NCBI GenBank assembly: GCA_024349765.1
Contig: AP026074.1
Coordinates: forward strand, 868,001 to 932,000
Length of the DNA: 64,000 nucleotides
Reading direction: 5' to 3'
From: Streptomyces nigrescens
GTDB taxonomy: Bacteria; Actinomycetota; Actinomycetes; Streptomycetales; Streptomycetaceae
A model generated the notes under the pieces. It had not been told where the DNA came from, did no database searches, and saw only the letters and a list, made by a program, of their open reading frames with translations. Made by a program: the position numbers and the translations under genes. Positions 1 to 63,977 of this stretch are shown here, in pieces. Numbering within the stretch: position 1 is the stretch's first letter; every line of letters begins with the position of its first letter.

Positions 1-2
1 CT

Positions 3-5635: not shown

Positions 5636-5685
5636 CTTCCTACTCCTTCTCATGAAATGGGGGTGAGGGGAGCCGAGGGGTGAGA

Positions 5686-7627: not shown

Positions 7628-7665
7628 GGGCGGGATGTCCTTCGCTTAACGGGTGGGAACGGGTG

Positions 7666-8694: not shown

Positions 8695-8696
8695 GA

Positions 8697-9952
<1,256 letters not shown>

Positions 9953-9954
9953 TC

Positions 9955-10854: not shown

Positions 10855-11119
10855 CCACTCATCGGCTTCCGCGGCGTCAGGACAAGGCACCTCACCCCAC
10901 CCGGCAGACCACGTTGGCGCGTGATCTGCCGCAGGCCGGCGCCCATCAAAACGGGCTCACGCTCCGTCGCACCCACAGCCCCGGCACCACATCTCCGTGC
11001 GATGAGGCATGCCCTCACAAAAACGCTCTGTCCGCAGTTCCGTGAATCCCCAGGTCAGGGGCGGGAACGAGGGATCGTTTCGGCAGGGTGTTTCCTGCCA
11101 TGGCGAGCAAGACGGTCGA

Positions 11120-11667: not shown

Positions 11668-11740
11668 CCTTCACCAATCGCCGAAGAGCGGTTTCCTGGT
11701 TTTCGTGCAGGCCTGAGTCACGCCGTGGCTGGTGGGCTCG

Positions 11741-13327: not shown

Positions 13328-13500
13328 GACCGGTGATCATCCCGGTGTGGCCTTCCCAGGACAAGACCTCAACCCCGATCTCGCGGACGGGGCGCAGCCA
13401 TGGGCACGCCGGCGCGGGGTACGACCCTTTCACGCAGCCGCGGTCAGAGCCCACAAAAGACCACGTCGTCTCACCTTGAACGGGCCTGCCCCTCAAAACC

Positions 13501-13569
13501 GCCTCCATCACGTCGCCTTCGGCTCACCGCCTCCGTCACGTCGCCTTCGGCTCACCGCTTCGGCTCACC
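13501..13569. repeat. 28-base tandem repeat with partial third unit
   Basis: Two copies of a 28-base unit differing at one base (GCCTCCRTCACGTCGCCTTC then GGCTCACC) occupy 13501-13528 and 13529-13556, followed by a partial unit to 13569. There is no spacer, so this is not a CRISPR. It lies 42 bases from the left end of the IS5 element, in the gap between that element and paralogue A; the rest of the gap (13328-13610) holds no gene. Confidence 0.8.
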
Positions 13570-13624
13570 GCCTTCGGGGCCGGGTACAACGGAAGTCCTC
13601 CACCCAGCCCTAAGACGGTGTCCT

Positions 13625-14469: not shown

Positions 14470-14481
14470 GACACCGTCTTA

Positions 14482-14757
14482 ATAGAAGTCCGCCACCCCT
14501 GGCTCCTTCTTGCCGTCCTCGAGCGCCTTGCGCAGAGCTCGGTACACCGGCGCCAGCTGCGCTGGCCCGACGTGTCTGGCTCCGGACATTGCAACGTTCC
14601 AGTCTGGGACCGCTGCTGGCTGGACTGCGCGCCAGTGCTCCTCAGCCAAGGTGCGGCGCTGAGTGAACCGTACTGGGGGCCACCCGCAAGCCACGCGCTC
14701 AGTTCTGGCCGCCATCTCCCGCGTGACCACCGGCAAACTCGCCATGAGCGCCTCGCA
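14482..14757 (-). pseudogene. truncated gene of unknown function cut by the IS
   Basis: A minus-strand frame reads REMAARTERVACGWPP, LAEEHWRAVQPAAVPDWN, GPAQLAPVYRALRKALEDGKKEPGVADFY and stops at the tip of the IS5-family element. The RALRKALEDGKKEPGVADFY stretch resembles the linker before the membrane part of pentapeptide-type channel proteins in Streptomyces (from memory; not checked). Both ends are missing: upstream it merges with the acyl-CoA oxidase-like relic, which runs the other way. Confidence 0.35.
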
Positions 14758-14782
14758 ATCGGCGCCGAGCAGCCTTGGCGAT

Positions 14783-15530
14783 AACCGGCTGCTACGCCCA
14801 CCACCGCTACAACACCGGTAGCCCCGCCCCAGTGCCCATCGCCGCACGCCTCATCGCTCACCTGGCCACTACCTATGCGATGACTTTCCTGCACCGCCAG
14901 ACCTTCTATGCCATCTGCGATGACCACGACCGCCAGCACATCGAACGTACCGTCGCTCTGACCAGAACATTCACCACCTGGCAGGCCTGCGACATCGTCA
15001 CCGAAGCCCGCGAACGCTGCGGCGCACACGCCATGTTCCCCTACAACGGAATCGCCGGCCTCGCACCCGCGCTCGACGGAGCGATCACCGCGGAAGGCGA
15101 CAACCTCCCGATCCGGTGAAGGCAGCTGCCGAGATGCTGTTCGACCGCAAACTACCGGTCGACGCCACCCCACTTCAGACCTGGGAGGAATCGACAATCC
15201 CCTGAGCCAGCTACGCCACCTGCTCACCGTGGCCGAGGACCTTGCAGCCCGCCGCGCCCGGAGCCGCTTCAGCGCGAACCGAAAGGAGGCATCTCAGGGG
15301 GCTGGCACGGTGGAACAATGCCAGTCTGCCCGCCACCGAGGCCGCGAGCCTGCACACCGCTGGCCGAGCCGCCACCTTCCTCGTCGTTATCGACTCCCGT
15401 GGGTCATCAAGAACGTCACTCGTCCCGCCTGTCTGGATGAGACATCTGACCCGGTGAACCGCCTCATGGCCATCCCTGATGTCACCGCCTCGAAGGAATT
15501 GACATCACTACGAGACAAGCTCACCTCCAT
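14783..15530 (+). pseudogene. acyl-CoA oxidase/dehydrogenase-like gene remnant
   Basis: Three plus-strand frames together resemble the C-terminal half of an acyl-CoA oxidase, the flavoenzyme that introduces the alpha-beta double bond in acyl-CoAs. Segments in order are CDDHDRQHIERTVALTRTFTTWQA, ERCGAHAMFPYNGIAGLAPALDGAITAEGDNL, then in another frame VKAAAEMLF, then HLLTVAEDLAARRARSRF, then ARWNNASLPATEAASLHTAGRA. At least three frame changes and a missing N-terminus show a dead gene. The next stretch to 15.63 kb is featureless. Confidence 0.65.
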
Positions 15531-15639
15531 GGGCCACTGATCTCCCGCAACTGCCGCCGTCGTCCACCCATTCTGGTCGTCCCGCGGGCCTGCTTGTGGT
15601 GACTGGCGTCCGGTGGTCGTACGCGGCGAGGGTGGGGTA

Positions 15640-15935
15640 GAGGGTGGACCGGCCGACGCTCGCGGAGCTCACCGCCCTGGGCAAGCCCGCGGCCTTCGTG
15701 CCCCTGGCCTTCTCAGCGGGGAATGAGCAGGCGCACAACGCCAAGCACTTTGAGGACGCTGGCGCCGCCATTGCCCTCACCAGTGACGTCACCGCGGTCC
15801 GCCCGCAGGACGCGCTCGGCCCGCTGCTCGCCGACCCGGAGCGGCGCCCGGGGATGGCCCAGGCGCGCCCCGGGCGCATGGTCGGCCGGACGCGGCGGAC
15901 CGGCTTGTGGACGTGCCCTGCACCACGTCAGGTGC
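15640..15935 (+). pseudogene. MurG-like glycosyltransferase C-terminal remnant
   Basis: The frame PTLAELTALGKPAAFVPLAFSAGNEQAHNAKHFEDAGAAIALTSDVTA ... LGPLLADPERRPGMAQAR matches the nucleotide-sugar-binding end of MurG-type GT28 enzymes, which transfer GlcNAc to lipid I. A frameshift follows, after which another frame continues HGRPDAADRLVDVPC as expected for the family end. The N-terminal domain is absent. It runs toward the minus-strand sigma/IclR-like gene. Confidence 0.65.
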
Positions 15936-16064
15936 TCTTCCCTACACAAGTGGTGTTGGAGGCGTGCCTTTTGAAGATGTATCTCCCATGTGGTGGGTGT
16001 TGGGTTCGGCAAGGGCCCCGTGTCTCCCGCCCGGGTTGGTGGTGTGGGGGTGGGTGGGGGGTGT

Positions 16065-18202
16065 TCAGTGTGGGGTGGTGTGTATCTGGGGTAGGGCGCG
16101 GGCTGTATCGGTGAGGGCGAGTTGGGCAGTTTCTTTCGCAGTGGTGGTGTGGGGTGGTCGGTGCTTGGTTGGGGTTTCGTTGGTGAGGAGGAAGGCCAGG
16201 AGGAGTCCTGCGGAGCGTTCGCTGAGCTTGTGGGCGGTGGGCAGGAGTCGGTGGCGTTGTCCCGCCGGCAGCGATAGGGCGACGCATGAGGCATGCCTGG
16301 GGATGCCGAGGGGGAAGGCCGCGCAAGACCTCCTCGCGCGAGTACTCCAGCAGGTCGAATTGGGCGGCGCAGGGTCCGTGTCCGTCGAGTGCTTCGAACA
16401 GGGCGTGGGGGTTGGTGATGGTGCGCTCGGTCAAGGGGAGTGTAGGTGCTGACGTAGACAGCTGCCCCGAGCTGATCCCGCAGACCGGCCAGGGTCTGCT
16501 GTAGCAACTGGGTGCGTTGTTGGGGGTGATGGGTCATTTTCATCAAGGGTCCGGGTAGGTGGGCACCGGCGACGGTGCAGATGAGCTGCTGGCCACGCAG
16601 CCAGTCCACAAGCCTGGCCACCGCGGCGTGCGGAAGGCCGCTGCGGCCGGTCAGATCACGGGTGGTGATCCCGTCTGCCGCGTCGACGAGATAGAGAATG
16701 TCCAGCGCTCGGATTGCGGCTTTCCACTGCCCGGGTGTGTCGGCCTGCGCAGGGGTGCTGCGGGCCATGTCGGTCAACACCGCCGGCCGCAGAGCATCAG
16801 CACACCACCACGCGTCCCGCCCGCCGGTGTTGCCCGCTGGAGCAGTGGGGGAGACCCCGGGGTGTTCGGGCGCCAAGGGGAAGAGCAGGCCGTCCCCGTG
16901 ATGCGCGGCGCCGGACAGACTCGTGGACTGGGGCCGTTCGGCTGCATGGCCCTCGGCCACTGCCCGGGAAGGGCGACGGTGGAGCCACCGTGGGCGGGCG
17001 GCGAAGTTGAGTCGGGGGGCGGGTACCAGGACAAGACGGTCAGTACCCGATGCCGGTGTTCCCTGCGAACCATCGCGTGTTGGTGGTTCATCGGCCCCAG
17101 CCCCAGCCTCCTGCGGTAGCAGCGGAAGACCCAAACTTTCCCGGACTTCGTCGATGAACTGGGGGTCCTCGATGTCCGCAGGCGTGAGGTGAGCGAGGGT
17201 TTGGGCAGAGGTGGTTGCCTCGAGCAGTATGTGGGCGTCGCCGTGCCCGTGGCGCGCAGCCTCCGCAACCAGGTACCGCACGTCCTCCCGAGCTTCTTCA
17301 CTCCCTGCGCGCGCCGCGAGAGCGGCCATCCGGAAGAGTGCACCGGGATGGCCGGCCTCGGCGGCAGCGCCCAGCCACTCAGTGGCCGGCGAGAGTTCGC
17401 CACGACCCAGGGCCTTCGACCCCAGCCGATACAGCGAGTTGGCGTGCGCTCGCTCTTCCAATGTCAGCGCGTAGTGCTGTGTCAGGGGTCCGAAGTCTCC
17501 GCGCGGCCGGTCCCAAGGGTCGGGTGGTCCGGCCAGTTGGGTCAGCAGTTGCGCGAGCTGGGTGGGGACCACCGGCTCCGGGCGCCCCGCCGCCCTGCCG
17601 CGGTGGTCGTCGTACCTGCTCACATCCCTCACCTGTCCCTCTTGGCGTGCTGTGGCTTCTTGCGATGCCTCCCGAATATGCCCAGCAAGGCTGACTCTTA
17701 GATCCGTAATTGCCTTATTTCGCAGGTTAGATAGGCGATAGATGGATATGCCCAGTACTGTTGCGATCTCCATATCGCTCAGCCCCTGGCTCTGCAGGTC
17801 CACCACCTGGCGCCGCAGGCTCCCCGGCATCTCCTCGATAGCCGGGATCACCAACTCCTCAAGCACCGCCTGGCCTGCATCCGCCAACGCCCACCGTTCC
17901 GCGACGGCTTCCAGTGCTTCACCATCCATCAGCACCAGCCGCCGCCTGCCTCGCTGTTGTGCACGGCACCAGTCCACAGCGAGATTGCGCGCCGCCCGCC
18001 GCAGATACGCCCTCACATTCGTCTCCGTCGCCAGTTCCCCCTCCGCGGCCTTGTGGCCCACCGCCAGATAGGCCTCCTGCGCCAGGTCCTGGCATGCGGC
18101 CAGCGACAGCCCGGAAAAGGTCCGGTGCAGCCAGCGCGGCTCCGTTTCCATGAAGACCGGGTAGTAATCGAGCAGTCTTTGCCCCACGTCGTGCAGCGTC
18201 AC
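16065..18202 (-). pseudogene. sigma-factor / SEL1 / IclR-like fusion regulator, C-terminus damaged
   Basis: N-terminal 200 residues form an ECF-type sigma-factor module (region 2 around FSGLSLAACQDLAQEAYLAVG and ETNVRAYLRRAARNLAVDWCRAQQRGRR; region 4 around LQSQGLSDMEIATVLGISIYRLSNLRNKA). Next are SEL1-like repeats (LYRLGSKALGRGELSPATEWLGAAAEAGHPGALFRMAALA), a long linker and an IclR-type winged helix (WKAAIRALDILYLVDAADGITTRDLTGRSGLPHAAVARLVDWLRGQ). The IclR effector domain is broken: after AAVYVSTYT the sequence jumps frame to TERTITNPHALFEALDG ... FDLLEYSREEV, then again to AFPLGIPRHASCVALSLPAGQRH ... HKLSERSAGLLLAF, ending at 16065. Compared with intact Streptomyces relatives (from memory) about 50 residues seem deleted at the first break. 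GTG 18202 overlaps the upstream stop as GTGA. Confidence 0.7.
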
Positions 18203-18528
18203 GGCTTCCCTCGAGAGGCTGCTGTCGCCTCCCACGGCCCTGGCCCCCCTCCCGCCGCTGAATCGTCCACGCAGGGGTCGGCGCCGACCGCGATGCGGAC
18301 CGATACGGGCGCCTGGGCGGCGACCTCCAACCGCACGACTGCACAAACATGTGCAGCACCGCGACACGGGCCGTCGCAGTCTTGCGGATCCTGGTCGCCC
18401 TCGTTGGCTTGACGAAGCCTTCCTCCGCTAGGACTGCGCTCCCCAAACAGGCGCACCAGGGTGCCCAGCGCGTGGACCGCGCTCACGGCGACCGGGAGAT
18501 ATTCGGTCAACTCCAAAGCCGGAGTCAT
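18199..18528 (-). CDS. small protein coupled to the sigma/IclR-like gene
   Basis: 109 residues; I do not recognise the family. It begins TPALELTEYLPVAVSAVHALGTLVRLFGERSP, a mildly hydrophobic helix-rich start, and has a Cys cluster (DCDGPCRGAAHVCAVVRLEVAA). GGAGAG lies 8 bases before the ATG at 18528, and its stop overlaps the GTG of the sigma/IclR-like gene (GTGA), so the two are translationally coupled. It may be a partner or modulator of that regulator; this is inference from the coupling only. Confidence 0.6.
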   Translation of the reverse strand: MTPALELTEYLPVAVSAVHALGTLVRLFGERSPSGGRLRQANEGDQDPQDCDGPCRGAAHVCAVVRLEVAAQAPVSVRIAVGADPCVDDSAAGGGPGPWEATAASRGKP

Positions 18529-18759
18529 GTAGTGGCTCTCCATACATCGGACAGGGACGCGAAGTACGTCCTCGCCTCCCTGACGGATCCTGAGAGCCAC
18601 TTCTCCCTCCGGTCCCCTTCAGTTCACCCGAGGGAGTGAATGCGCGCTGTGCGTCGTGCAGCCAGCGGCCGCTTCATGTCACGGCCTGTGGGGGCTCCAC
18701 ATCAGGCCAAGCCTCGTACGAGGAAGGGATCTCGCATGGAGCCGTGACGTTGGATTCAG

Positions 18760-18911
18760 CAGTCCCCTTCGTCTGCGTGGAGAGGACCCTGGCGACCCTC
18801 GGTGCCGCCGGCTGGGGAGGTCGTTCAGCTCCGCTCACGCGGAGAGCGCGCCGGCTCGATTCAGATCACCACCCGTATCGCCGGTTCACCTCCGCTCACG
18901 CGGAGAGCCCC
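18760..18911 (-). CRISPR. small second CRISPR array, type I-E-like repeat, degenerate
   Basis: Two 29-base repeats at 18822-18850 and 18883-18911 share an identical core CTCCGCTCACGCGGAGAGC and are separated by a 32-base spacer (61-base period, as in type I-E). A further degenerate copy of the core lies at 18767-18784, about 62 bases earlier. On the minus strand the repeat reads GCTCTCCGCGTGAGCGGAG then GTGAACC, the same stem-loop design as Streptomyces I-E repeats but a different sequence from the 19.06-19.27 kb array. With only two clear units, the array is either a relic or a minimal array. Confidence 0.6.
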
Positions 18912-19061
18912 CTTCGCCACCTGCGATGTAGGAGCGCTTCGCTGGGGCTGGTTGGATGCTGCAGTCGTCGACGCCGGAGGCGCGCGGAAAAACGACCGGG
19001 CTGAGCTTCACACCAAGGGTTGCCAAGCACCCATCGTCATTTGCGACTCACTTCCCCCCGC

Positions 19062-19273
19062 GGAACTACCCCCGCAGGTGCGGGGACGACGCGAAGAAGG
19101 CTGTGCTGGAGACCTACACCAAGGAACTACCCCCGCGGGTGCGGGGACGACCGCAGCTTCGCGGCGTCGAGGGTGCCGGCCGCGGAACTACCCCCGCGGG
19201 TGCGGGGACGACGAGCCGGCGAGCTCGTCGAGGACCTGCAACACCGAACTACCCCCGCGGGTGCGGGGACGAC
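19062..19273 (-). CRISPR. type I-E CRISPR array, 4 repeats and 3 spacers
   Basis: Four 29-base repeats at 19062-19090, 19123-19151, 19184-19212 and 19245-19273 with three spacers of exactly 32 bases. On the minus strand the repeat reads GTCGTCCCCGCACCCGCGG then GGGTAGTTCC, a typical actinobacterial I-E repeat with a GC-rich hairpin. Repeat 1 has one stem change (CGCAGG for CGCGGG) and repeat 4 has its outermost base changed. By analogy with other I-E arrays, transcription should run on the minus strand with the leader to the right, but no leader can be proved. cas3 follows on the plus strand. Confidence 0.95.
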
Positions 19274-19410
19274 ACTTCTTGACCTGCGCGGATGCTAGCA
19301 GTGGGGTCGGTTTTCCTTTGGCGGCGTCGGGTGTTGGGGCATGTGGTCCAGGGGCACTGTCAGTGGGTGGGGCTATGGTGCGGCTCCACTGTACGGAGGA
19401 GGTTGCGCCG

Positions 19411-20487
19411 GTGGAGCGCATGCGGTCGATCGTTGACTTGAGGCGGGGGATGGGGCTGTCGGAGGAGGCAGTTGCCAGGGTGTCGCGGTTATGGGGGAAG
19501 TCCGCGGCGCGGAACGGGGGACGCACTCACCTGCTGCTTGGGCACTTGCTGGACACCGCTGCCGTGGCGGAGGTGATGTGGGAGTGGTATCTCTCGGCTG
19601 CGTTGCGGCACCGGCTGGAGGAGATCAGTGGCGGACGTGGGCGTCTGTGGTTCATGTGGATCTGTGGGATTCACGACTGCGGAAAGGCGTGCCCCGCTTT
19701 TCAGGCGCTGGACGAGGCGGAGGCTGCCCCGGTCAGGGCAGCGGGTCTGGTGTGGGGGAGGTTGCCGGCGGACCGGCGGCAGCGGTGGCGGCATGACGTG
19801 GCGGGTGCCGCATTGCTGCGGCCGAGGTTGGTCGCGGAGTGGGAGAGCAAGCGGATCGGCCCGGTTGGAGAATGCGGCCGGAGCGACGAGCCGTCGGCCT
19901 TCGATCCGTTCGACGTCTATGGGGCGACTGATGAGGACGCCGAGTACGGTATGTCTTCGTGGGCATTGGGCGGAAGCTGCGATCAGCATGAGCGGCGTGA
20001 CGGGCCGGCTCGGTGGTTTCTGGGGAACAAGCGGGGCCTGCTGACGGCCTTTGCCGTCGGCACCGTCGACCACCTCCTACATGCGGCGACCCGTACGGGG
20101 CACGTGATGCTGCGTTTCGCCGGCCTGGTGGGCAAGGTCGTGGTGGTCGACGAGGTGCATGCCGCGGATGTCTACATGCGGCAGTTCCTGCTGGAGGCGC
20201 TGCGCTGGCTCGGGCAGGCCAAGGTCCCGGTGGTCCTGCTCTCGGCGACGCTTCCGCCGGCGCAGCGGCAGGCATGTGTCGATGCATATCAGTCGGGTGT
20301 GCTGAACACGGCGGACGTGGTCTGTCCGGTGCCAGAGCCTGCCGGATATCCGTGCGTGACCGTGGCCTATGCCCTCAATGAGATCTACCGCTTCGGCGGC
20401 GGGGATCTCACTCGGCCCGACAGCCCGCAGATCATCTCCGACTTCTTCACCGAGCTCCTCACCCGCCACAAGGAGCCGACACCGTAG
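19411..20487 (+). CDS. cas3: Cas3 helicase-nuclease, internally deleted and C-terminally truncated
   Basis: 358 residues instead of roughly 900. The HD nuclease domain is present: His45 (HLLLGHLLDTAAVAE), His88-Asp89 (GIHDCGKACPAFQ) and His128 (RHDVAGAALL). The helicase part resumes at WFLGNKRGLLTAFAVGTVDHLLHA, then DEVH at 247-250 (motif II) and SAT at 278-280 (motif III). The stretch that should hold the Walker A/motif I lysine, between about residues 145 and 200, is missing, and the whole second RecA domain with motifs V and VI is absent after residue 358. GGAGGAGG lies 8 bases before GTG 19411, fixing the start. No casA-E, cas1 or cas2 gene is in the window, so interference by this locus alone is very unlikely. 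Confidence 0.85.
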   Translation: MERMRSIVDLRRGMGLSEEAVARVSRLWGKSAARNGGRTHLLLGHLLDTAAVAEVMWEWYLSAALRHRLEEISGGRGRLWFMWICGIHDCGKACPAFQALDEAEAAPVRAAGLVWGRLPADRRQRWRHDVAGAALLRPRLVAEWESKRIGPVGECGRSDEPSAFDPFDVYGATDEDAEYGMSSWALGGSCDQHERRDGPARWFLGNKRGLLTAFAVGTVDHLLHAATRTGHVMLRFAGLVGKVVVVDEVHAADVYMRQFLLEALRWLGQAKVPVVLLSATLPPAQRQACVDAYQSGVLNTADVVCPVPEPAGYPCVTVAYALNEIYRFGGGDLTRPDSPQIISDFFTELLTRHKEPTP

Positions 20488-56370: not shown

Positions 56371-56802
56371 ATGCTGTCCACCATGAGCGCAATGCCGCCC
56401 GGCGGTGGTCAGGGGGACAGCCCAAGGGTGGCGCAGGCCCGGTCGCGTGCGGCCGAACGTGCCGCGCGTCAGGCTGCGCGGATGCACTTGGCGCTGTGGG
56501 GCGTCATGCTCCTCACCACCGCCTCGGCTGTGCAGAGTCGGCCACACCCGGGGGTGACCGGTGAGCGGCTCGTCATCAGCCTGGCGCTGGCCGGGTGCCT
56601 GCTGTCACTGGCCGTCGCGGCCCTGGTCCGGGGCCCGTGGAAGTCGGAGGCGGCCACCGCTGCGATACCGCTGATCCTGGGTGCCGCCGGAGATGTGCTG
56701 GCATGGCTCCAGCCGACCTCGACGATGATGATCCCCGTCGCCACCGCAGTGGCGATGCTCTTCGCGCGCCTGCGGCCGCGTCTGGCCGTCCTTATGGCGT
56801 AG
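56371..56802 (+). pseudogene. membrane sensor-like protein, truncated at the Tn7-like element
   Basis: 143 residues: a charged start (DSPRVAQARSRAAERAARQAARMHLALWGVMLLTT), then three or four membrane helices (LVISLALAGCLLSLAVAALV, AATAAIPLILGAAGDVLAWL, MIPVATAVAMLFARLRPRLAVLMA) and an abrupt TAG. This looks like the N-terminal membrane part of a two-component sensor kinase whose catalytic part is missing. Base composition changes to more AT-rich right after the stop, where the left end of the Tn7-like element is expected. Confidence 0.55.
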
Positions 56803-56840
56803 CTGATGGTGTGCTTATTGATCTTGATTGTGGCCTGCTG

Positions 56841-56986
56841 TTGTTCAGTCGTACTGGGTGGTAGTTCTGATCAGTCGGTGGGGCTTACGCGAAACCGGGT
56901 GTCCGGTGTCGGGGGATACGTGGGTTGAGCTGGGTGTTTGGTGTTGCGCAGTGTGCTGAGCGGGGTGGTGGTTTTTGCTCAGTGTG
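56841..56986. repeat. repeated words at the left end, candidate TnsB-binding sites
   Basis: TTGCGCAGTGTG (56944-56955) and TTGCTCAGTGTG (56975-56986) are 31 bases apart; TTGTTCAGTCG (56841-56851) and CTGATCAGTCG (56867-56877) are 26 bases apart. All four share a (T/G)CAGT core in the same orientation. Tn7-like ends carry several TnsB sites of about 20 bases, so these are candidates, not proven. The rest of 56803-57057 has no gene. Confidence 0.4.
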
Positions 56987-57057
56987 GTTGGCGCGTCTAT
57001 AGGTACCGGTGCTGGCCGGCTGTGTGAGGGCTGGGGCGGTGTGGGGTGTGGGTTGGT

Positions 57058-57981
57058 TCAGCGGGTGGTGAGGCGTTGCCAGAGCAGGTCGTGGTCGGCG
57101 GGTGCGAGGCGGGTCAGGTGGAGGCGGCGGGCGAGGTGGTGGAGGAAGGCGGTCTGCTGGGTGCGGGTCAGGGGGGTGTGGCGGGGGAGGCGGTCGAGGG
57201 TTGTGGCGAGGGTGAGGGTTTCGGGGTAGGTGATCAGGGTCCGGCAGGTCAGGGCGGGGGAGGCCGGGCTGTGGGTGAGGTGGGGGTTGGCGGTGGTGAG
57301 CTGGTGCAGGCGGGTGTGCCAGCGGGTGTGGAGGTGCTGGTGGTGGTCGTACCAGCGGGTGGTGATCGTGGTGGCCCAGCTCAGGGAAGCCGTGGTGGGC
57401 GGCCGGCGGGCGGTGAGGCGGGCGTGGGTGAGTTCGGGCAGGGTCCGGATGTCGAGGGGGATGCGCTGTCGGGGGTCGCTGGAGGCTTGATGGTGACGGG
57501 TGCAGATCATGGCCCGGGGCCGGTCGGGCGCGGGGTGGATCCACGCGGGGGCGGCGTGGTGGGGCGGGCGGCGCAGGGTGCAGGCGGTGCAGGCCGGCAG
57601 GGGCTGCACGGCGGGGACGAGGGGCTGCCAGCGGGCGGTGGCGGTGGGGGCGGTGGCGATGGTGGCGGGCGGGGGCCGGCGGGTCAGTGCGCGGTTGAGG
57701 TGGGCGGGCGGGATGCGGGTGAAGGCGGCCAGGCGGCGGGCGGCTTCGTTGCTGAGGTGGAGTTCGGTGGCGTGCGGGGCGGCGGGGGTGCCGGTGGCGG
57801 TGATGTGCAGGCCGTCCAGGAGGTGGGCGGGGGAGAGGTGGTAGGCGGCGGCGAGGCGGGTGAGGTAGGAGGCTGCCGTTTCGCGGGGCAGCGGTCGCAC
57901 GCGCAGCGCGCCGGGCGGGCTGGGCCACATCGTGCCGGGCCGCACCGCGGGCATGGGGCGGGCCTGGGTGGGGGCGGTCAC
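57058..57981 (-). CDS. tniQ: TniQ/TnsD-family target-selection protein
   Basis: 307 residues. The TniQ start ALRVRPLPRETAASYLTRLAAAYHLSPAHLL and the zinc site Cys131-x2-Cys134 ... Cys160-x2-His163 (CTACTLR ... CTRHH) are clear. TniQ proteins bridge a target-recognition factor and the TnsC ATPase, or bind DNA themselves in TnsD-like forms. The C-terminal 130 residues are His/Thr/Arg-rich helices that may read DNA. GTG 57981 overlaps the tnsC stop (GTGA). No Cas or other targeting partner is in the operon. Confidence 0.88.
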   Translation of the reverse strand: MTAPTQARPMPAVRPGTMWPSPPGALRVRPLPRETAASYLTRLAAAYHLSPAHLLDGLHITATGTPAAPHATELHLSNEAARRLAAFTRIPPAHLNRALTRRPPPATIATAPTATARWQPLVPAVQPLPACTACTLRRPPHHAAPAWIHPAPDRPRAMICTRHHQASSDPRQRIPLDIRTLPELTHARLTARRPPTTASLSWATTITTRWYDHHQHLHTRWHTRLHQLTTANPHLTHSPASPALTCRTLITYPETLTLATTLDRLPRHTPLTRTQQTAFLHHLARRLHLTRLAPADHDLLWQRLTTR

Positions 57982-59012
57982 CGGCCGGGGCGGGTGCGGC
58001 GGGCGGGGGTTCGGGGCCGGTAGTGCTCTTCGGCGAGGTGGTCCAGTGCGATGGTGTCCAGCAGGGTCTTGGTGATGCGCTCGGTGCCTTCGCAGATGGC
58101 TTCGATGGCGGCCTGGCGGATCAGGCGTGAGAGGCTGCCGATGCGTCCGGCGGTTCGTTCGTGCAGGTACGGCGCCAGCCTGGGCAGGCTGCCGGTGCGG
58201 TGCGCGGTGAGGTCGAGGGCCGCTTCCAGGGCGGTGATCAGCTCGCGGAACGGCTCGCGGTGGCCGGCGCGGGCGGGCAGCGCTCCGCAGTCGATCAAAG
58301 AGGCGCGTCCGGCCAGCTGTGCGCCGCGTACTCCGCTGAAAACGGCGCTGGCGGTGACGTCGATGCCGGCGTAGACGAATGTGGCGCCGATACGTTCGGT
58401 GAGGTCCTTGAGCCAGTCGGCGGCCTCCGCGCCGCTGGAGGTACGCGGGTTGAGCCGGTGGATCTCGTCGATCAGCACGAGTGCGACGCCGGCCGTGGTG
58501 TAGGTGTGGCAGACGGCGGTCGTGATCTGCGCGGTGGTCATGCGGGCGGCCACGGGGATGCCGAGGTAGCGGGCGAACTCGGCGGCCAGGGTCTTGGCGG
58601 TGGCGCCGGGCGGTACCAGCACGTAGGCGACGGGCACGCTGGTGTCGCCCGGGTGGGCGCGGCGGGTGTGGGCGAGGTGGCAGGTACGGCCGACCTGGAG
58701 CAGCGCGGTGGTCTTGCCGGTGGTGGCCGGTCCGGTGACGATCAGCGACGGCCGGGCGGTGGCCTGCTGGTGGCGGCCCAGGATCATCAGGGTGCGGACC
58801 TGGCGTGCCAGGGATTCGATGGCCGGGGTGCGCACGGTGACGAACTGCGAGTGGTAGGCCAGGCGTTCCTCCGGCGTACGGGGTGCCTGGCCCGGCTGCG
58901 GCGGCGTGGGGGGTGCGGCGTGGGCGAACCGGGCGAAGCCGTCGAACGTCGTCACCGTGCCCGCGGCCGCCTCGCCGTCGGTCGGGGGCGAAGGGCGGGC
59001 AGGGCTCACCAC
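57978..59012 (-). CDS. tnsC: TnsC/TniB-family AAA+ ATPase
   Basis: 344 residues. Walker A GPATTGKT at 94-101, Walker B VALVLIDEIH at 176-185 (Asp182-Glu183), followed by a sensor region (GATFVYAGIDV) and the C-terminal helical part SRLIRQAAIEAICEGTERITKTLLDTIAL. In Tn7-like systems TnsC polymerises on DNA with ATP, receives the target signal from TniQ and activates TnsB. It overlaps tnsB2 by 7 bases and tniQ by 4, so expression is coupled. All ATPase residues are intact. Confidence 0.92.
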   Translation of the reverse strand: MVSPARPSPPTDGEAAAGTVTTFDGFARFAHAAPPTPPQPGQAPRTPEERLAYHSQFVTVRTPAIESLARQVRTLMILGRHQQATARPSLIVTGPATTGKTTALLQVGRTCHLAHTRRAHPGDTSVPVAYVLVPPGATAKTLAAEFARYLGIPVAARMTTAQITTAVCHTYTTAGVALVLIDEIHRLNPRTSSGAEAADWLKDLTERIGATFVYAGIDVTASAVFSGVRGAQLAGRASLIDCGALPARAGHREPFRELITALEAALDLTAHRTGSLPRLAPYLHERTAGRIGSLSRLIRQAAIEAICEGTERITKTLLDTIALDHLAEEHYRPRTPARRTRPGR

Positions 59013-61147
59013 AGTTCGGCCTCCTGGTCGGCGTCGTACAGCGTCAGCGCGCCGCTTGCCGGCAGCGTGAGTGCGCCGGACTCATCGGCGCCGACGTCGT
59101 CCCGGGCGGCTCGGGCGTCCAGCGCATCCAGGCTGTCCTCCGCCTCCGTTGCGGCCTGGGCCGCAGTACGGTGCGGTGCTGCCGGTTCGCCGCCTGCTGC
59201 CTGGGAGACCGCCTTCCCGGCGCGCGTGCCCGGCGCTGTGGCAGGCGCGGCGGGCGCTGGGGTGGTGGGCCGGGCCTGGCGCAGGATCTGGTCGGCGGCC
59301 TCGGCGAGGGCGGCTTCGTGGGCCTCGCGTTCGGCGCGCTGCTCGAGGGTGGTGCGGATGTGGCGCCAGGTGGTCTCGCTCATGGGCGCGTGGACGTGGT
59401 CGCGGTGGATCCACGGGATCTCGTGCAGGTGTCCGTCGGGCAGGCGGAGGTAGATCTGGCGGACGTCGTGCGGGTTGAGGTGGACCTCCCACTTGCCGCC
59501 GGGGCCGGTGGGGCAGGACCGTCCGCGGTGTTCGTTGAGGATGGCGTGGTCGTAGGTGCGGTAGTTGATGCGGATGCCGCGGCCGGTGACCGGGTGGAAG
59601 CGCACCGGCAGCAGTTCCGTGTAGTCGGCTCCCGTCAGCGGCAGCGGCACATAGCCGCTCGCGCCCAGCAGCGCACCCCACATCTCGCCCGGTGACAGCG
59701 CCTTCTTGGGCAGGAGGGGGTGGCGCAGCCCGTCGTGGGGGCGGTGCTGCCAGCACGCGGTGATCCACTCGTCCAGCAGTTCCTGCATCTGGGCCACGGT
59801 GAAGCGGGCTTCGTCTTCCACCGCCTCGCCGCGCGCCAGGATGTGGGGGCCGGTGTAGCCGGCGGCGTGCTGGGCGAAAAGGCTGTTGATGCTGCCGAAG
59901 GTCCGTTCCACGGCGCCCTTTGCGGTGGGGGAGCGGGGCGGGGCGGGCTGCACGCTCACCCCGAGGGATTCACAGGCGGCCAGGAAAGCGGCGGAGAGGA
60001 ACACCCGCCCGCGGTCGATGACGATCGTCTCCGGCACCACCACCGGCCGCGCCGCCGCCTGTTCAAGCCGCGCGTCCAGGGCGAGGAGCCGGTCGTAGGG
60101 GACGGCGGCGTGGGCCAGGCGCAGATGCTCGCCCCAGCCGGGCCGCACCGGGTGGGGCACAGCCATCTCCGCCAGCAGCAGGGCCGCGTCCACCGCCTGG
60201 GTGCTCTGCTCACGCAGCACGGCCGCCACCACCGACCGTGTTGCCACGTCCAGGGCGATCGTGAGCTCCGGGCGCACCGGCTTTCCGTCCTCCCCGATGG
60301 CCATGATGTCCAGCCGGGTGGTGTCGACCTGCACCAGCTCGCCCGGCCGCAGCGCCACCACCGGCGTGAACGGCCGCACCGGCACGGCGGTGGCGGTGCG
60401 GGCGGGACGCCCCGGGTGTTCCAGCGGGTCGGCCAGGACCCGCACCAGCCGGTTGAACGTCGACGGCGCCGGCAGCGCCACCGCGCCCGGCCCGTGGGCC
60501 TCGGCCAGGATCTGCCCGCTCAACTCCCGCAGCCCCTTCAGCGTGCCCGTGGAGCGGCCGCGCTGGCGGCGCAGCGCCTCCAGCACCGCGGCCACCACCC
60601 GCTCATCCGCACGCCCGGTCGCGCTCGACGGCTTGCGCTGCCGGACCAGGCCCATGACGCCGCCCGTGTGGTAGCGGGCGCGCATGCGGCGCACGGTGGC
60701 CCGGCTGGCCCGCGGCCAGCCCAGAGCCGCGAGTTCGTCGGCCTTGGCCTGCTCCCGCTCGGCCATCGAGGTGCGCTGCGGGTCGTACTCGGGCCGGGGG
60801 CAGCCGGTGCCGCCGGGCCCGTCGGGCAGCCCGGTCTCGATCTCGCGGATGTGCCGCTGCCAGGCCATCGCCCTCTCCCGCTCCCGTTCGGGCACCGCCT
60901 CCAAAAGGCCCCACGGCGCCGCGGCGGGGACCGGGCAGTCCACCACCGCGAAGGTGGGATCGGCGAACAGCAGCGAGGTCAGAACCGAGGCGGTCTGCCC
61001 GTCCTCGTCGACGAGGCGTACCGAGGCCCCGGCCACGGCGGCCACCTGCCAGGGGCGGCCCTCGAACGTCACATACGCCCCGAGTTTGACCTGCCGGCGC
61101 CGGGCGGCGGCCACGGCGCGGACCGGGCGGCCGGGAGCGCTCACCAC
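59006..61147 (-). CDS. tnsB: TnsB-family DDE transposase, catalytically intact (TnsB2)
   Basis: 713 residues: an N-terminal beta domain (LGAYVTFEGRPWQVAAVAG), the DNA-binding helices (AWQRHIREIETGLPDGPG, ADELAALGWPRASRATVRRMRARYHTGGVMGLV), the retroviral-integrase-type core and a Mu-type C-terminal barrel. The DDE triad is complete: Asp275 (VQVDTTRLD), Asp378 (IVIDRG) and Glu414 (GAVERTF), with 35 residues between the last two. After residue 620 comes an Ala/Pro-rich linker and a terminal peptide TLYDADQEAELW. It should cut and join the transposon 3' ends. The start overlaps the tnsB1 stop by 7 bases. Confidence 0.92.
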   Translation of the reverse strand: MVSAPGRPVRAVAAARRRQVKLGAYVTFEGRPWQVAAVAGASVRLVDEDGQTASVLTSLLFADPTFAVVDCPVPAAAPWGLLEAVPERERERAMAWQRHIREIETGLPDGPGGTGCPRPEYDPQRTSMAEREQAKADELAALGWPRASRATVRRMRARYHTGGVMGLVRQRKPSSATGRADERVVAAVLEALRRQRGRSTGTLKGLRELSGQILAEAHGPGAVALPAPSTFNRLVRVLADPLEHPGRPARTATAVPVRPFTPVVALRPGELVQVDTTRLDIMAIGEDGKPVRPELTIALDVATRSVVAAVLREQSTQAVDAALLLAEMAVPHPVRPGWGEHLRLAHAAVPYDRLLALDARLEQAAARPVVVPETIVIDRGRVFLSAAFLAACESLGVSVQPAPPRSPTAKGAVERTFGSINSLFAQHAAGYTGPHILARGEAVEDEARFTVAQMQELLDEWITACWQHRPHDGLRHPLLPKKALSPGEMWGALLGASGYVPLPLTGADYTELLPVRFHPVTGRGIRINYRTYDHAILNEHRGRSCPTGPGGKWEVHLNPHDVRQIYLRLPDGHLHEIPWIHRDHVHAPMSETTWRHIRTTLEQRAEREAHEAALAEAADQILRQARPTTPAPAAPATAPGTRAGKAVSQAAGGEPAAPHRTAAQAATEAEDSLDALDARAARDDVGADESGALTLPASGALTLYDADQEAELW

Positions 61148-63129
61148 TGTCCGGCCTCCGCCTCGGCGTCATACACCGACAACCCGCCCGGTTCCACGGC
61201 CGCCGTGCCGCCGCTGGCGGTGCCGGGCACCGCGCCGCCGGTCCCGCCCCGGGCAGCCGCTTCCCGGGGCTGCGCCGCGGCGGGGGAGGGGCCTGCTCTG
61301 ACGCTGCCCGCCTGCACACCACCGTCGGCACCGGCACGGGCACCGGCGGCGCGGTGCGCGAGGACGGCGCCTGTGCGGCGCCGCAGCAGCTCGTCGAAGG
61401 GCCGCAAGCCGTGCTCGCCCTGCGCCCAGGGCACCACGTGGAGCTGGCCGTCGGGCAGCCGGACGAAGACCTGCCGCGAGTCATGAGGATGGTGGTGGAC
61501 CTCGAACCGGTCCCCGCGGCCGCGGTGTTCGTCCAGGCACGCATCGTCGTAGCGGCGCCCGCCCAGCCGGATGCCGGACTCGGTCACCGCGCACCGGCGG
61601 GCCGGCAGCAGTTCGCCATAGTGCTGCCCGGCCAGCGGCAGCGGCACCCTCCCGGCCGCGCCCAACAGCACCTGCCACATCTCCTGCGGTGCCAGCCCCG
61701 CCCGGGGCAGCAGCGGATGCCGCAGCTGCTCCTGGGCGCGCTGGTGCCAGACGCCGGTGATCCATTCGTCCAGCAGGTCCTGCAGCTGAGGCATGCTCCA
61801 GTACGCCCCGTCCGCCTCGTCCGCCCGGTTCTCGCCCGCAGCGGCGGGCGGCCGGGCCGCCACCGCGTGCCGGGAGAACAGGCCGGCGAGCACCTCAAGC
61901 GTGCGCAGGGCACCGCAGCGGGCACCCGCCGTCCGGGGCGGGGCCGGCTCCAGGCTGATGCCAAGGCTCTCGCACACGGTCAGGACCGCCGAGGTGACGC
62001 CGGCCGTCCCGTGGTCGAGGACGAGCGTCTCGGGCACGGCCGTCGGACGCGCCGCGGTGGCCTCGATCCGGTCGGGCAAGGACATCAGCCGCCGCGCCGG
62101 CCCGCCCGCGTGGGCCTGCTCCAGCAGGGCGGGCCAGCCCGGGCGCAGCGGCCGGGGCACGGCCATCTCGGCCAGCAGCACCGACAACTGAACCGGCCCG
62201 CCCTGTAGCGGGTGCAGCACGGCGGCCAGCACGCAGCCGCTCGCCTGATCCAGCGCGGCCGTCACCGCCACCTCCACCGTGGTCCCGTCCTCGCCCACCG
62301 CGCCGACCGACAGGCGGGCGGTGGCCACCTGCACCCGCTCCGAGGGCCGCAGCGCGGCAGGCGGGCCACCCGCTGGGCCTGGGCGGGTGGCGGTGCGCGC
62401 CGCACTGCCCGGCGGCTCGGCCGGATCAGACAACGCCTTCACCAGCCGGTACATCGACGCCTTCGCGGGCAGCTTCACCCGCCCAGGACCGTGCCGGTCC
62501 GCCACGATCCGCTCCGCCAGATCGATGATCTGCTTCACCGTGGCCGCCTTGCGGCCGCGACGCAAGCGCAGCGCCTCCAGCACCGCGGCCACCACCCGGC
62601 CGTCAGCGCGTCCGGTCCCGGATCTGGGGCGCACGGTCCGCTGGTCGACCAGCCCCATCAACCCCTGCTTGTGGTAGGCGATACGCCGCCGCTGTACGGT
62701 TGCTCTGCTGACCTTCGTCCAGCCCAGCGCGGCGAGCTCCCGCGCTTTGGCGTGCTCGCGCTCGGCGAGCGTGAACCGCTGCGGGTCGTAGTCGTCTCTG
62801 GGAACCCCACGACTGCCAGGGCCGCCGGGCAGCCCGGTCTCGATCTCGCGGATGTGCCGCTGCCAGGCCAGAGCCCGCTCGCGTGCAGCCAGCGGCAGCG
62901 CCGCCCACGCCTCGGCCGACGGAATCGGAGGGTCAGCCTGCCCGACGACCTTGAAACCGGGGGCGGTCACCAGACGGGCGGCCAGCACACACCCCGTGGC
63001 CCCGTCGTCGGCGGCCACATACACCCGCCCGTCGGCCAGGCCGCTCACCTGCCAGGTGCGGCCCTCGAACTCGACTCGCGCCCCCACCCCAACACCCCGC
63101 CCGCCAAGGGCGGCTGGTTCGTTGCTCAA
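61141..63129 (-). CDS. TnsB-like paralogue without DDE triad (TnsB1)
   Basis: 662 residues from TTG 63129, which overlaps the tnsA stop (TTGA). It aligns with TnsB2 along its length (AWQRHIREIETGLPGGPG, ARELAALGWTKVSRATVQRRRIAYHKQGLMGLV, LLDEWITGVWHQRAQEQLRHPLLP). The first catalytic Asp is Ala269 (VQVATARLS) and the Glu position is Leu408 (CGALRT); only Asp372 (LVLDHG) remains. The frame is otherwise clean, GC-rich and free of stops, so loss of activity looks selected instead of decayed. The C-terminal peptide SVYDAEAEAGQW matches that of TnsB2. A structural partner or end-binding subunit is the simplest idea. Confidence 0.88.
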   Translation of the reverse strand: MSNEPAALGGRGVGVGARVEFEGRTWQVSGLADGRVYVAADDGATGCVLAARLVTAPGFKVVGQADPPIPSAEAWAALPLAARERALAWQRHIREIETGLPGGPGSRGVPRDDYDPQRFTLAEREHAKARELAALGWTKVSRATVQRRRIAYHKQGLMGLVDQRTVRPRSGTGRADGRVVAAVLEALRLRRGRKAATVKQIIDLAERIVADRHGPGRVKLPAKASMYRLVKALSDPAEPPGSAARTATRPGPAGGPPAALRPSERVQVATARLSVGAVGEDGTTVEVAVTAALDQASGCVLAAVLHPLQGGPVQLSVLLAEMAVPRPLRPGWPALLEQAHAGGPARRLMSLPDRIEATAARPTAVPETLVLDHGTAGVTSAVLTVCESLGISLEPAPPRTAGARCGALRTLEVLAGLFSRHAVAARPPAAAGENRADEADGAYWSMPQLQDLLDEWITGVWHQRAQEQLRHPLLPRAGLAPQEMWQVLLGAAGRVPLPLAGQHYGELLPARRCAVTESGIRLGGRRYDDACLDEHRGRGDRFEVHHHPHDSRQVFVRLPDGQLHVVPWAQGEHGLRPFDELLRRRTGAVLAHRAAGARAGADGGVQAGSVRAGPSPAAAQPREAAARGGTGGAVPGTASGGTAAVEPGGLSVYDAEAEAGQW

Positions 63130-63977
63130 CGTGCCTGCTGCTCCCGTTCGCTGCCGCCTGCGCCCGGATCGGACGGGCCGGGGCAGACGAGGGTGTGCTC
63201 GCCCAGCGGCCGGGTCAGGTCCGCGGTCAGCCGCGCGCTCCACAGCGCGTGGTAGAGCACCGGCAGCGCGCTCAGGACCTCGCCCGCCGCCGCGGCCCCA
63301 GCCATCAAAGCCCGCGGGGCGGCGAACGCGTCCAGGACCGCCTGCTCCAGCCCGCCGGCGTCGCGGTGGCGGGGGTGGCGGTAGCCGGCCAGCCACCGCA
63401 CGTTCGCCGCCACCATCTTGTCCGGTGGCACCAGGCGCCGGTAGGTGAAGCCCACCGCCGCACACGCCGCTTCGAGCACCGCGGCCGCCCGCGCGGCACG
63501 CTCCCCGGTGGGCTCCGACGTGGCGGGGCAGTCGGCGAGCAGGGCGCTGCCGTCGGTGTGGCGGGCGAACAACTGCGGCACCCAGGTCAGAACCCGCCTG
63601 CTGTCGGGGTCCCGCCAGATCAGCCGCACCGGCCGAGCCGACAGGCCCACCACCTGCGGATCACGGTCCAGCAGCATCAGCTGCGTGCACATCGCCTGCG
63701 AGCCGTGCATGACGTGCCGGGCGGTGGTGGCCGACCACCACCAGCCCGGCCCCCATCGCCGACCGGGCACCACCGGGAACGCAGCGACCGGCTGGAGCTG
63801 TTCGAAACGCACCGCGACGGCGGCCTCCGTCCAGCGGCGCTGCATCAGCGTGCCGTCCGACCCGGCGAACTCCGCCTCCACCGCGCCCGGCTCCGGCACC
63901 CGGCAGGCGCTGGGCGCGACGGCGGGTAAGCCGGACTGGGCGCTGTCCTGGCTGCTGTCGAAGATCACGTACTCCAC
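63126..63977 (-). CDS. TnsA-like protein with substituted catalytic residues
   Basis: 283 residues. The segment PGRRWGPGWWWSATTARHV, then LMLLDRDPQVVGLSARPVRLIWRD, then VPQLFARHTDGSALLADC, follows the TnsA-like endonuclease fold, which in Tn7 cuts the 5' ends. By comparison with active relatives (from memory: an E-R-D-H helix and an A-P-D-(Y/F)-F strand) the Glu position is Met96 and the Asp position is Gln135; Asp149 is kept but the basic residue after it is lost. The protein is probably not a nuclease. It is the first gene of the operon; the promoter must lie in or beyond the last 23 bases of the window. Confidence 0.75.
   Translation of the reverse strand: MEYVIFDSSQDSAQSGLPAVAPSACRVPEPGAVEAEFAGSDGTLMQRRWTEAAVAVRFEQLQPVAAFPVVPGRRWGPGWWWSATTARHVMHGSQAMCTQLMLLDRDPQVVGLSARPVRLIWRDPDSRRVLTWVPQLFARHTDGSALLADCPATSEPTGERAARAAAVLEAACAAVGFTYRRLVPPDKMVAANVRWLAGYRHPRHRDAGGLEQAVLDAFAAPRALMAGAAAAGEVLSALPVLYHALWSARLTADLTRPLGEHTLVCPGPSDPGAGGSEREQQAR

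Follow-up and report, generated by a model that had tools for sequence, protein, structure and literature searches.

The tnsA-tnsB1-tnsB2-tnsC-tniQ operon, located in a stretch of 64,000 nucleotides of Streptomyces DNA (the window), encodes two TnsB paralogs, and it is well supported by sequence comparison that one of these, TnsB1, is a dead TnsB that is kept by selection beside the active TnsB2. The DNA-binding half of this dead twin is kept in related elements, which points to a transposase that combines active and inactive parts. With a probability of about 0.6, TnsB1 would take part in a mixed transpososome as a non-catalytic subunit that binds the element end and contacts TnsC. The preliminary description of this DNA had proposed both the maintenance of the dead protein and a heteromeric transposase; the former is backed by nine genomes, by dN/dS and by the pattern of constraint over the domains, and the heteromer is still an inference. 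That description did not include the one-ended, telomere-borne nature of the element, the lost catalytic acids of TnsA, or the restriction of the pair to a rare sub-lineage.

The Operon and its Genes

The operon spans positions 57058–63977 on the minus strand (Table 1). All five genes lie where the preliminary description had placed them, and the core set of a Tn7-type element (DDE TnsB, AAA+ TnsC/TniB, TniQ, and TnsA) is encoded together. TnsA matches NF033179 (TnsA_like_Actin) with 267.8 bits. Among the Pfam families, rve matches TnsB2, with an additional match to Mu-transpos_C below the cut-off, and Mu-transpos_C matches TnsB1. The gene order is identical in all nine loci with a TnsB1-TnsB2 pair. 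A TTG at 63129, the candidate start of tnsB1, overlaps the stop codon of tnsA, while the open frame reaches upstream to 63465; on the other side, tnsB1 and tnsB2 overlap at ..TGGTGAG... Because of these overlaps, translational coupling of tnsB1 on both sides, as claimed earlier, is plausible for the predicted start codon.

Table 1. Features of the operon and of the adjoining element end.
Feature	Description	Position	Strand	Basis
tnsA	TnsA-like subunit with catalytic Glu and Asp positions lost (E to G, D to Q)	63126..63977	-	NF033179 match, alignment of 22 TnsA
tnsB1	Catalytically dead TnsB paralog (A269, D372, L408)	61141..63129	-	Numbering from TTG at 63129
tnsB2	TnsB with intact D275/D378/E414	59006..61147	-	Alignment, PDB profile match
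tnsC	AAA+ regulator, TniB/TnsC type	57978..59012	-	PF05621, 61.2 bits
tniQ	Short TniQ	57058..57981	-	PF06527, 35.0 bits
Element end	Single element end, terminus TATGGCGTAGCTG	56793..57057		Outer limit of 26-kb terminal repeat

Catalytic Residues and Origin of the Two TnsB Proteins

TnsB1 and TnsB2 share 52% identity across 591 positions, and their catalytic columns map onto the DDE motifs of Tn6677 TnsB in a profile search of the PDB. The residues that the preliminary description had read at these columns are indeed those of Table 1, and the window copy of tnsB1 is, as it had stated, open throughout, with neither stop nor frameshift. The first Asp column holds Ala in all ten TnsB1 rows, which derive from nine genomes, so that the recurrence of the pair with this loss, proposed earlier as a check, is confirmed. 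The Glu column lacks Glu in the same ten rows, although for L018 this depends on the alignment, because a Glu lies one residue past the column, beside a gap. D-D-E is found in 11 of 11 TnsB2 and 12 of 12 single TnsB proteins, as well as in 28 of 29 further matches that span all three columns, some of which may repeat the aligned proteins.

A DDE triad in shifted positions, which would have spoken against a dead TnsB1, is rejected: the first Asp is missing from all rows, and no row forms a full triad at the candidate places. The Glu five residues ahead of the lost first Asp is common to TnsB2. The Glu situated four residues further along in TnsB1 (TLEV) is present in most rows; the position is Gln in L010 and L015, and Arg in L018.

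Averaged over eight genomes, the identity between TnsB1 and TnsB2 is highest in the HTH region (65%), followed by the RNase H domain (47%) and the N-terminal barrel (42%). The earlier wording that the DNA-binding blocks of TnsB1 are almost unchanged is overstated in view of these values. An origin of TnsB1 as a recent copy of its co-resident TnsB2 is rejected, since each of the two is monophyletic (100/100) with TnsB1 on a long stem; a joint clade of TnsB1 and TnsB2 is a topology that is not rejected (p-AU 0.21). For this tree, L014 was dropped (same strain as L013) and the L027 TnsB was cut to 640 residues, while the frameshifted L015 TnsB1 was kept, both here and in the alignment of the catalytic columns. 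The AlphaFold models are weak, with a mean pLDDT of 50.2 and 55.6.

Selection on TnsB1

The dN/dS of TnsB1 is 0.41–0.58 in 10 of the 28 possible pairs, not near 1, and is higher over the whole protein than that of TnsB2. In the pair of the window and L010, the one covered by the neutral simulation, dN/dS is 0.47 compared to a neutral minimum of 0.59 in 240 simulated runs, an open frame being kept in 20 of these. The TnsB1 frame is open in nine of ten rows, at protein divergences of up to 39%. Ordinary decay of TnsB1 is rejected on the dN/dS values together with the simulation. Stops, frameshifts and a dN/dS near 1, by which a pseudogene would be recognized, are not found in TnsB1, with the exceptions of L015, L019, and L076.

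Constraint differs between the domains: TnsB1 matches TnsB2 in the constraint on its HTH region and is relaxed in its RNase H domain. In five pairs, dN/dS of the HTH region is 0.27–0.36 for TnsB1 vs. 0.26–0.54 for TnsB2, and that of the RNase H domain 0.44–0.65 vs. 0.05–0.20, with wide intervals for the domains (the upper limit for RNase H in the window-L010 pair is 1.30). The N-terminal barrel is relaxed in TnsB1 too (0.33–0.59 vs. 0–0.37). The Mu-transpos_C barrel of TnsB1 has values of 0.30–0.45 in four of five pairs, the fifth being 1.15 with a very wide interval. Of the residues that are invariant in 21 of the 23 other TnsB proteins (L022 and L027 were left out), nine TnsB1 proteins retain 28 of the 34 that lie in the HTH region, compared to 28 of the 57 in the RNase H domain. 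The L015 TnsB1 was left out of the dN/dS estimates and of the domain comparison of identity and invariant residues.

Behind a hypervariable linker, of which the dN/dS is near neutral (0.83–1.05), all nine unshifted TnsB1 rows end in the tail [YW]D...EA..W. TnsB1 therewith keeps the C-terminal tail region where TnsC-binding hooks lie. A C-terminal hook of 15 residues in ShCAST TnsB is described to bind TnsC and to be required, and the final residues of Tn7 TnsB to be required for the TnsB-TnsC interaction (PMC9371665).

Loss of the Catalytic Acids in TnsA

Among 22 aligned TnsA proteins, 20 carry E to G and D to Q changes at the catalytic positions, which we take to correspond to E63 and D114 of Tn7 TnsA; the Glu and Asp are kept only in the outgroups L030 and L031. 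The TnsA of the operon has no match to PF08722, two outgroup TnsA proteins match this family weakly, and a phmmer search of the PDB with an outgroup TnsA gives no match. With the catalytic acids gone, the element does not answer to a cut-and-paste Tn7 with an active TnsA endonuclease, and TnsB2 may therefore be the only catalytic subunit. TnsA is under purifying selection (dN/dS 0.22–0.39).

The Element End and the Telomere

The operon occurs twice in its genome, with one copy in each of two 26-kb inverted arms and different flanking sequences around each copy. Besides the operon, the 26-kb terminal repeat contains one element end, a TnsD-like gene, tpg, tap, and the telomere; in the own-genome arm, Tpg and Tap score 279.5 and 1080 bits. 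Conserved blocks of the element end lie at 56793–56863 and 56917–57009. A 31-bp direct repeat (56920–56950/56951–56981) probably constitutes TnsB-binding sites. The terminus is TGTGGCGTAGCTG in L011, L013, L014, and L019, and TATGG in the window, L010, and L015; a TGTGG-type terminus with repeated putative TnsB sites is a Tn7-like feature.

A second element end was not found in the arms on the telomere side. As there is exactly one end per arm, the element was not assigned to the usual Tn7-like type with two ends. At its centre, the inverted repeat resembles the ~290 bp at the terminus of pNL15-2K-Lin, a linear plasmid, the best piece reaching 79% over 151 bp with E 2e-24; at the settings used, no inverted repeats were found in this telomere centre. 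Because of this resemblance and the lack of a second end, the arms most probably represent terminal repeats that were joined in assembly, and the idea of a composite transposon of 26 kb whose ends face inward is rejected. One end with the telomere as boundary and telomere maintenance genes inside, the hallmarks of telomeric transposons, are thus both found in the window's genome. The same layout of one end and a telomere is seen in two linear records, where the element end lies ~29.7 kb from the right telomere (L018) or at position 15152 of a record that starts at 1 (L019).

Distribution among Relatives

The TnsB1-TnsB2 pair is a rare sub-lineage trait. All 12 single-TnsB records examined are without TnsB1, and four of these elements (L020, L021, L023, and L024) adjoin telomeres. 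A scan of viral_contigs yields no relative, and nothing similar turns up as a near match in the phage collection. The absence of TnsB1 from complete elements, which would have weakened the preliminary description, is not seen, and it is damaged elements that lack or fragment it. L019 has TnsB2, TnsC and an in-frame TnsB1 remnant (approximately the first 102 residues plus the tail), with no TniQ; L077 retains TnsC, TniQ and a C-terminal portion of TnsB2, with no TnsB1 of this type; and L076 is a wreck with fragments of TnsA and TnsB1 only. As both L076 and L077 are wrecks, they leave the odds of a TnsB1 at work in a mixed transpososome unchanged. Still, the partial TnsB1 of L019, the damage in L076 and L077, the L015 frameshift, the alignment-dependent Glu loss in L018, the weaker overall constraint on TnsB1 with its relaxed N-terminal barrel and wide domain intervals, and the single-TnsB records run counter to it.

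The genes tpg and tap are located on the telomere side of tnsA in the window's genome, L010, L015, and L018, and beyond the element end in L011. No match to either gene was obtained in the whole L019 element or in the 19.9–21.9 kb stretches of L012, L013, L014, L016, and L017; these five stretches have TnsB1. Within TnsB1 of the window, residues 26–265 are closest to L018 and the rest is closest to L010. The N-terminal half shares 55–79% per block with L010, although the element ends of the two are nearly identical, a divergence that strict co-evolution of TnsB1 with the end would not predict and that likewise counts against the mixed transpososome.

Proposed Mechanism and Alternatives

In the mechanism that we propose, the operon would serve as transposition module for a Tn7-like element that has one end and is borne by the telomere of a linear Streptomyces replicon. 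TnsB1 would bind the TnsB sites in the element end as well as TnsC, and would fill the structural (inner-site) positions of a tetramer, leaving the two catalytic ones to TnsB2. Since TnsA would be inactive, the 3′ strands alone would be cut and joined, and the element would consequently move by replication (copy-in).

TnsB1 could also be a regulator, a dead end-binder that competes with TnsB2 in a dominant-negative way or feeds target immunity via TnsC, and that limits transposition of a carrier of telomere genes. The loss of catalysis in a protein that keeps its DNA-binding region and a TnsC-type tail would suit this role, as would the dependence of the TnsB-TnsC interaction on the last residues in Tn7, and the loss of TnsB1 in L019 would be tolerated. 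However, tnsB1 is located ahead of tnsB2 in an overlapping arrangement, which suggests a fixed stoichiometry rather than separate control, and the constraint on the Mu-transpos_C barrel is as expected if TnsB1 still assembles into the complex. Regulation is therefore judged unlikely. It is still less probable that TnsB1 replaces the missing second end by binding subterminal or telomere-bound DNA or proteins (Tap/Tpg), giving the second half of the synapse. Such a function would agree with the single end per arm, with tpg and tap on the telomere side of tnsA in four genomes, and with the separate, L018-like history of the N-terminal half. Nevertheless, the four single-TnsB elements adjoin telomeres without TnsB1, TnsB1 is present in five stretches without tap or tpg and in L011 with both genes beyond the end, and no telomere-side binding site was identified.

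That TnsB1 is a slowly decaying, functionless duplicate was already disfavored and is very improbable. The higher dN/dS compared to TnsB2, the linker near neutrality, the L015 frameshift, the internal deletion in L019, the fragments in L076 and the absence in L077 could all be read as decay, but the frame is otherwise open, the window-L010 value falls under all 240 neutral runs, constraint is patterned by domain with a conserved tail, and the losses in L019, L076, and L077 extend beyond tnsB1 to further parts of the element. A more far-reaching and unlikely reading would be a machine rebuilt for a one-ended transposon. Of the three former nucleases TnsA, TnsB1, and TnsB2, TnsB2 alone would cut. 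In an asymmetric synapse, the dead TnsB1 would form the second half, which does not cut, and would tie the single end and TnsC to telomere-bound DNA; by replication, a copy of the element and its telomere would be placed on a new replicon end.

If the catalytic and structural roles are split into two genes, the structural role would become directly testable by gene removal. Such a split would also bear on synapsis in a one-ended transposon bounded by a telomere, and on the question of its spread by replication. The family-wide loss of the TnsA active site provides a separate testable prediction of copy-in movement.

Comparison with Known Systems

The element resembles prototypic Tn7 (TnsABC+D/E) in that genes for TnsA, TnsB, TnsC, and a TniQ/TnsD-type protein are found in one element, with a TGT-type terminus in several relatives and putative TnsB sites in the end. 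Unlike Tn7, it has lost the TnsA catalytic positions, has an extra dead TnsB, and has only one end that was found. Tn5053/Tn402 and the type V-K CAST (ShCAST) are TnsA-less copy-in elements. The predicted TnsB-type cutting and joining of 3′ strands without second-strand cleavage would be shared with these. However, they are wholly without tnsA, whereas here a TnsA that lacks the catalytic acids is kept under purifying selection.

In Mu/Tn7-type DDE transpososomes, copies of one protein adopt different conformations. ShCAST TnsB is described as a tetramer of two conformers (PMC9371665), and the arrangement proposed here would resemble this and the MuA tetramer in having transposase subunits in two different conformations. 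An account of a dead TnsB paralog was not found in the titles, abstract openings and passages that were searched. In MuA and ShCAST a single gene product serves in both roles, which in the present element would fall to two separate paralogs.

Telomeric transposons of linear bacterial replicons are reportedly the subject of a 2025 paper in Science by Hsieh et al. They are said to be bounded by a single transposon end and by the telomere, to contain telomere maintenance genes, and to transpose into or between telomeric regions. The element is like these in its one specific end with a telomere boundary, its Tn7-type core, its telomere maintenance genes and its location at the ends of linear Streptomyces replicons, and it would differ from them in its two TnsB genes, of which one is dead.

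The operon and its inactive TnsB

The five genes lie in the order tnsA-tnsB1-tnsB2-tnsC-tniQ, as in the preliminary description, and positions and family matches agree (table). Over 591 positions, TnsB1 and TnsB2 share 52% identity. The catalytic residues of TnsB2 are D275, D378 and E414, and at the same columns TnsB1 has A269, D372 and L408 (numbered from the TTG at 63129, which overlaps the stop of tnsA). A profile search of PDB sequences aligns these columns with the DDE motifs of Tn6677 TnsB. The two tnsB genes overlap, and the string TGGTGAGC, common to the tnsB1/tnsB2 and tnsB2/tnsC junctions, could be the scar of a tandem duplication.

Genes of the operon and of the region beyond tnsA
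Gene	Position	Strand	Match or location
tnsA	63126-63977	minus	NF033179 (NCBIfam)
tnsB1	61141-63129	minus	TnsB domains (Pfam/NCBIfam)
tnsB2	59006-61147	minus	TnsB domains (Pfam/NCBIfam)
tnsC	57978-59012	minus	TniB family (Pfam/NCBIfam)
tniQ	57058-57981	minus	TniQ family (Pfam/NCBIfam)
468-aa gene	L005 (stretch of the same genome): 2635-4041	minus	between TnsD-like gene and tnsA
462-aa TnsD/TniQ-like gene			beyond tnsA; PF06527 below cut-off, E 4e-5
tpg			beyond tnsA; NF047541, 279.5 bits
tap			beyond tnsA; NF047542, 1080 bits

Recurrence and distribution

Searching GTDB genomes with TnsB1 returned eight loci in seven strains (six titled Streptomyces, one 'Actinobacteria bacterium OV320'), and PLSDB adds one pair locus, on a linear plasmid, pNL15-2K-Lin, recorded as Kutzneria buriramensis. 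Gene order is the same in all nine pair loci. One relative (L015) has a frameshifted tnsB1, and in two contigs of one strain (L013 and L014) about 5.6 kb splits tnsC (14585-20176); about 10 codons match on both sides of this insert. In an alignment of ten TnsB1 rows from nine genomes, the window among them, Ala replaces the first Asp throughout, and the Glu gives way to Leu, Ala or Val in every row; in L018 a Glu stands one residue past its column, beside a gap, so that its loss there is alignment-dependent. The middle column has Asp in five rows, Glu in one and Ala in four. Pairs with this gene order and the Asp-to-Ala change recur; at the third position the loss of Glu recurs, with Ala and Val besides Leu. 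D-D-E is present in 11/11 TnsB2, in all 12 TnsB of elements with a single TnsB gene, and in 28 of the 29 matches from further genomes that span all three columns; the exception, L046, carries an internal stop and encodes Gly in place of the first Asp.

Of 81 genomes of the genus, 43 carry TnsB relatives, but an intact pair is confined to the window's own genome and to G022, apparently the strain of L013/L014. Another genome (G061) holds a wrecked element, in which one piece of TnsA survives beside a TnsB1-like piece (the latter 64% over 148 positions); no further pairs came from two overlapping samples, of 41 and 81 genomes. Among plasmid records (183 with a TnsB2 match, 140 with a TnsB1 match), TnsB1 is found at 60% or more in one only, and TnsB2 at 80-90% in three. 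L018 has the pair; L019 has TnsB2, TnsC and an in-frame TnsB1 remnant (roughly residues 1-102 and the tail), with no TniQ; and L077 (pSSP121038, 5641-12909) is a broken element at an internal site on a linear plasmid. L077 retains the C-terminal part of TnsB2 (86%), TnsC (92%) and TniQ (88%), no TnsB1 of the window type, and a different TnsA/TnsB N-terminal part (34-44%) ~3 kb away, before the TnsB2 part. The other 12 plasmid records retrieved (L020-L031) have one TnsB of this family beside tns genes. These findings mark TnsB1 as a rare trait of a sub-lineage, and one that elements can lose. In the tree, TnsB1 and TnsB2 each form a clade (100/100), and tree tests neither support nor reject their joint origin.

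TniQ and most of TnsB1 are both missing from L019 (11441-14879), where the element end is kept; from this joint loss, the two may work together. In three single-TnsB telomere-proximal elements (L020:1088-, L024:3884-, L025:2142-) and in L019:6473-, a TniQ/TnsD-like N-terminus matches the beginning of 'helicase associated domain' proteins, as though a target selector had been fused to a helicase. On the linear plasmid pST1, genes for a DarT-type ADP-ribosyltransferase and an ADP-ribosylglycohydrolase (L020:4012-6386) adjoin the transposition genes.

Selection on TnsB1

By the Nei-Gojobori method (10 of 28 possible pairs; eight pairs for TnsC), dN/dS is 0.41-0.58 for TnsB1, 0.23-0.40 for TnsB2, 0.22-0.39 for TnsA, 0.15-0.29 for TnsC and 0.43-0.96 for TniQ. 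The value near 1 named in the preliminary description as speaking against a functional TnsB1 is thus not seen. For one pair, window and L010, neutral evolution was simulated from the window tnsB1 with 298 substitutions and four base compositions (240 runs): dN/dS averaged 0.90-1.31 and never fell below 0.59, against 0.47 observed, and runs gained 1.6-6.6 stops on average, 20 of 240 being stop-free.

By domain (five pairs, with wide single-domain intervals), dN/dS for TnsB1 and TnsB2 is 0.27-0.36 and 0.26-0.54 in the HTH region, 0.44-0.65 and 0.05-0.20 in RNase H, and 0.33-0.59 and 0-0.37 in the N-terminal barrel; the TnsB1 linker has 0.83-1.05. Identity to single TnsB is 63% (TnsB1) and 61% (TnsB2) in the HTH region, and 43% and 72% in RNase H. 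Counting residues that do not vary among 21 of the 23 other TnsB, nine TnsB1 keep 28/34 in the HTH region and 28/57 in RNase H. Together, these measures indicate that the HTH part of TnsB1 is held and the cutting part released.

The window TnsB1 is also mosaic. In its 675-residue frame, residues 26-265 are nearest L018 TnsB1 (75-95% per 40-residue block) and the rest nearest L010 (76-95%), with the break between the DNA-binding and catalytic parts.

Element end, arms and telomere

The window ends within a 26-kb arm. The contig carrying the operon, C2 (1,073,703 bp), has inverted arms at 924793-950788 and 952609-978604 that are 99.98% identical. The element end (window 56793) is the outer limit of each arm, with differing flanks, and profile searches of a 142-kb region place one copy in each arm and none elsewhere. 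Its terminus is TATGGCGTAGCTG, and TGTGGCGTAGCTG in L011, L013, L014 and L019; the window, L010, L011, L013, L014, L015, L018 and L019 share two conserved blocks that define the end. L016 (5986) and L017 (5987) carry its first 22-24 bases only, ~3 kb upstream of tnsA and away from tniQ, and miss the usual end next to tniQ; no element end was found in L012.

Past tnsA lie the 468-aa gene, the TnsD/TniQ-like gene, tpg, tap and a helicase gene. The 468-aa protein has no Pfam or NCBIfam match; L015 and L018 have it at 88-92% conservation, and it was not found in the other pair loci. Because the arm centre matches the terminal ~290 bp of pNL15-2K-Lin, C2 is most likely a linear replicon with its telomeres joined in the assembly. 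Between the arms (C2:950788-952609; ~788-2609 of L006, a stretch of the same genome) there is a lone telomere-like stretch of ~300 bp and an adjoining 302-bp length difference; here the assembly has apparently placed two telomeres head to head. In the linear record L018, the element spans its end to the right telomere (~29.7 kb, computed), and in L019 it spans base 1 to 15152, with no tap or tpg match. This layout, one end plus a telomere, is the one reported for telomeric transposons by Hsieh et al. 2025.

TnsA and the C-terminal tail

In an alignment of 22 TnsA, an E..PD motif (ESWLERD; TPDYFAR or APDFFAR) is kept in two outgroups, L030 and L031. In the remaining 20, whether or not their elements encode TnsB1, Gly replaces the Glu and Gln the Asp. 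Both outgroups match the Pfam TnsA model weakly (E 4e-4, below cut-off), and three of three other TnsA tried do not match it. We take the replaced positions to be the catalytic sites, by the motif and Tn7 residues E63 and D114. If so, TnsA would be catalytically dead in 20/22 and TnsB2 therefore the sole catalytic subunit, with copy-in movement predicted.

Beyond a variable linker, TnsB1 terminates in [YW]D...EA..W in 9/9 unshifted rows, and the frameshifted L015 gene retains the motif in another frame. The tail occurs in 9 of 11 TnsB2 (the other two have YN) and, in exact form, in 6 of 12 single TnsB. In ShCAST, transposition requires a hook made of the final 15 TnsB residues, which decorates TnsC filaments; TnsB there is a C2 tetramer with two conformers and cleavage in trans (PMC9371665). 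By its position, the TnsB1 tail may be the same hook.

Role of TnsB1 and comparison with known systems

TnsB1 would be a non-cutting subunit that still binds DNA and TnsC, and a mixed TnsB1/TnsB2 transpososome is the most likely reading of the sequences (probability about 0.6). That TnsB1 is instead a regulator ranks second and seems unlikely; a telomere-side partner standing in for the missing second end ranks third and is more doubtful still; and a mere relic, ranked last, is very improbable. Structure models (mean pLDDT 50.2 and 55.6) are too weak to inform mechanism.

The titles, abstract openings and some passages searched, which did not cover Hsieh et al. 2025, gave no account of a dead TnsB paralogue. 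Within that literature, the operon appears to be a variant of a known transposon type, of which the dead TnsB paralogue is the apparently new part.
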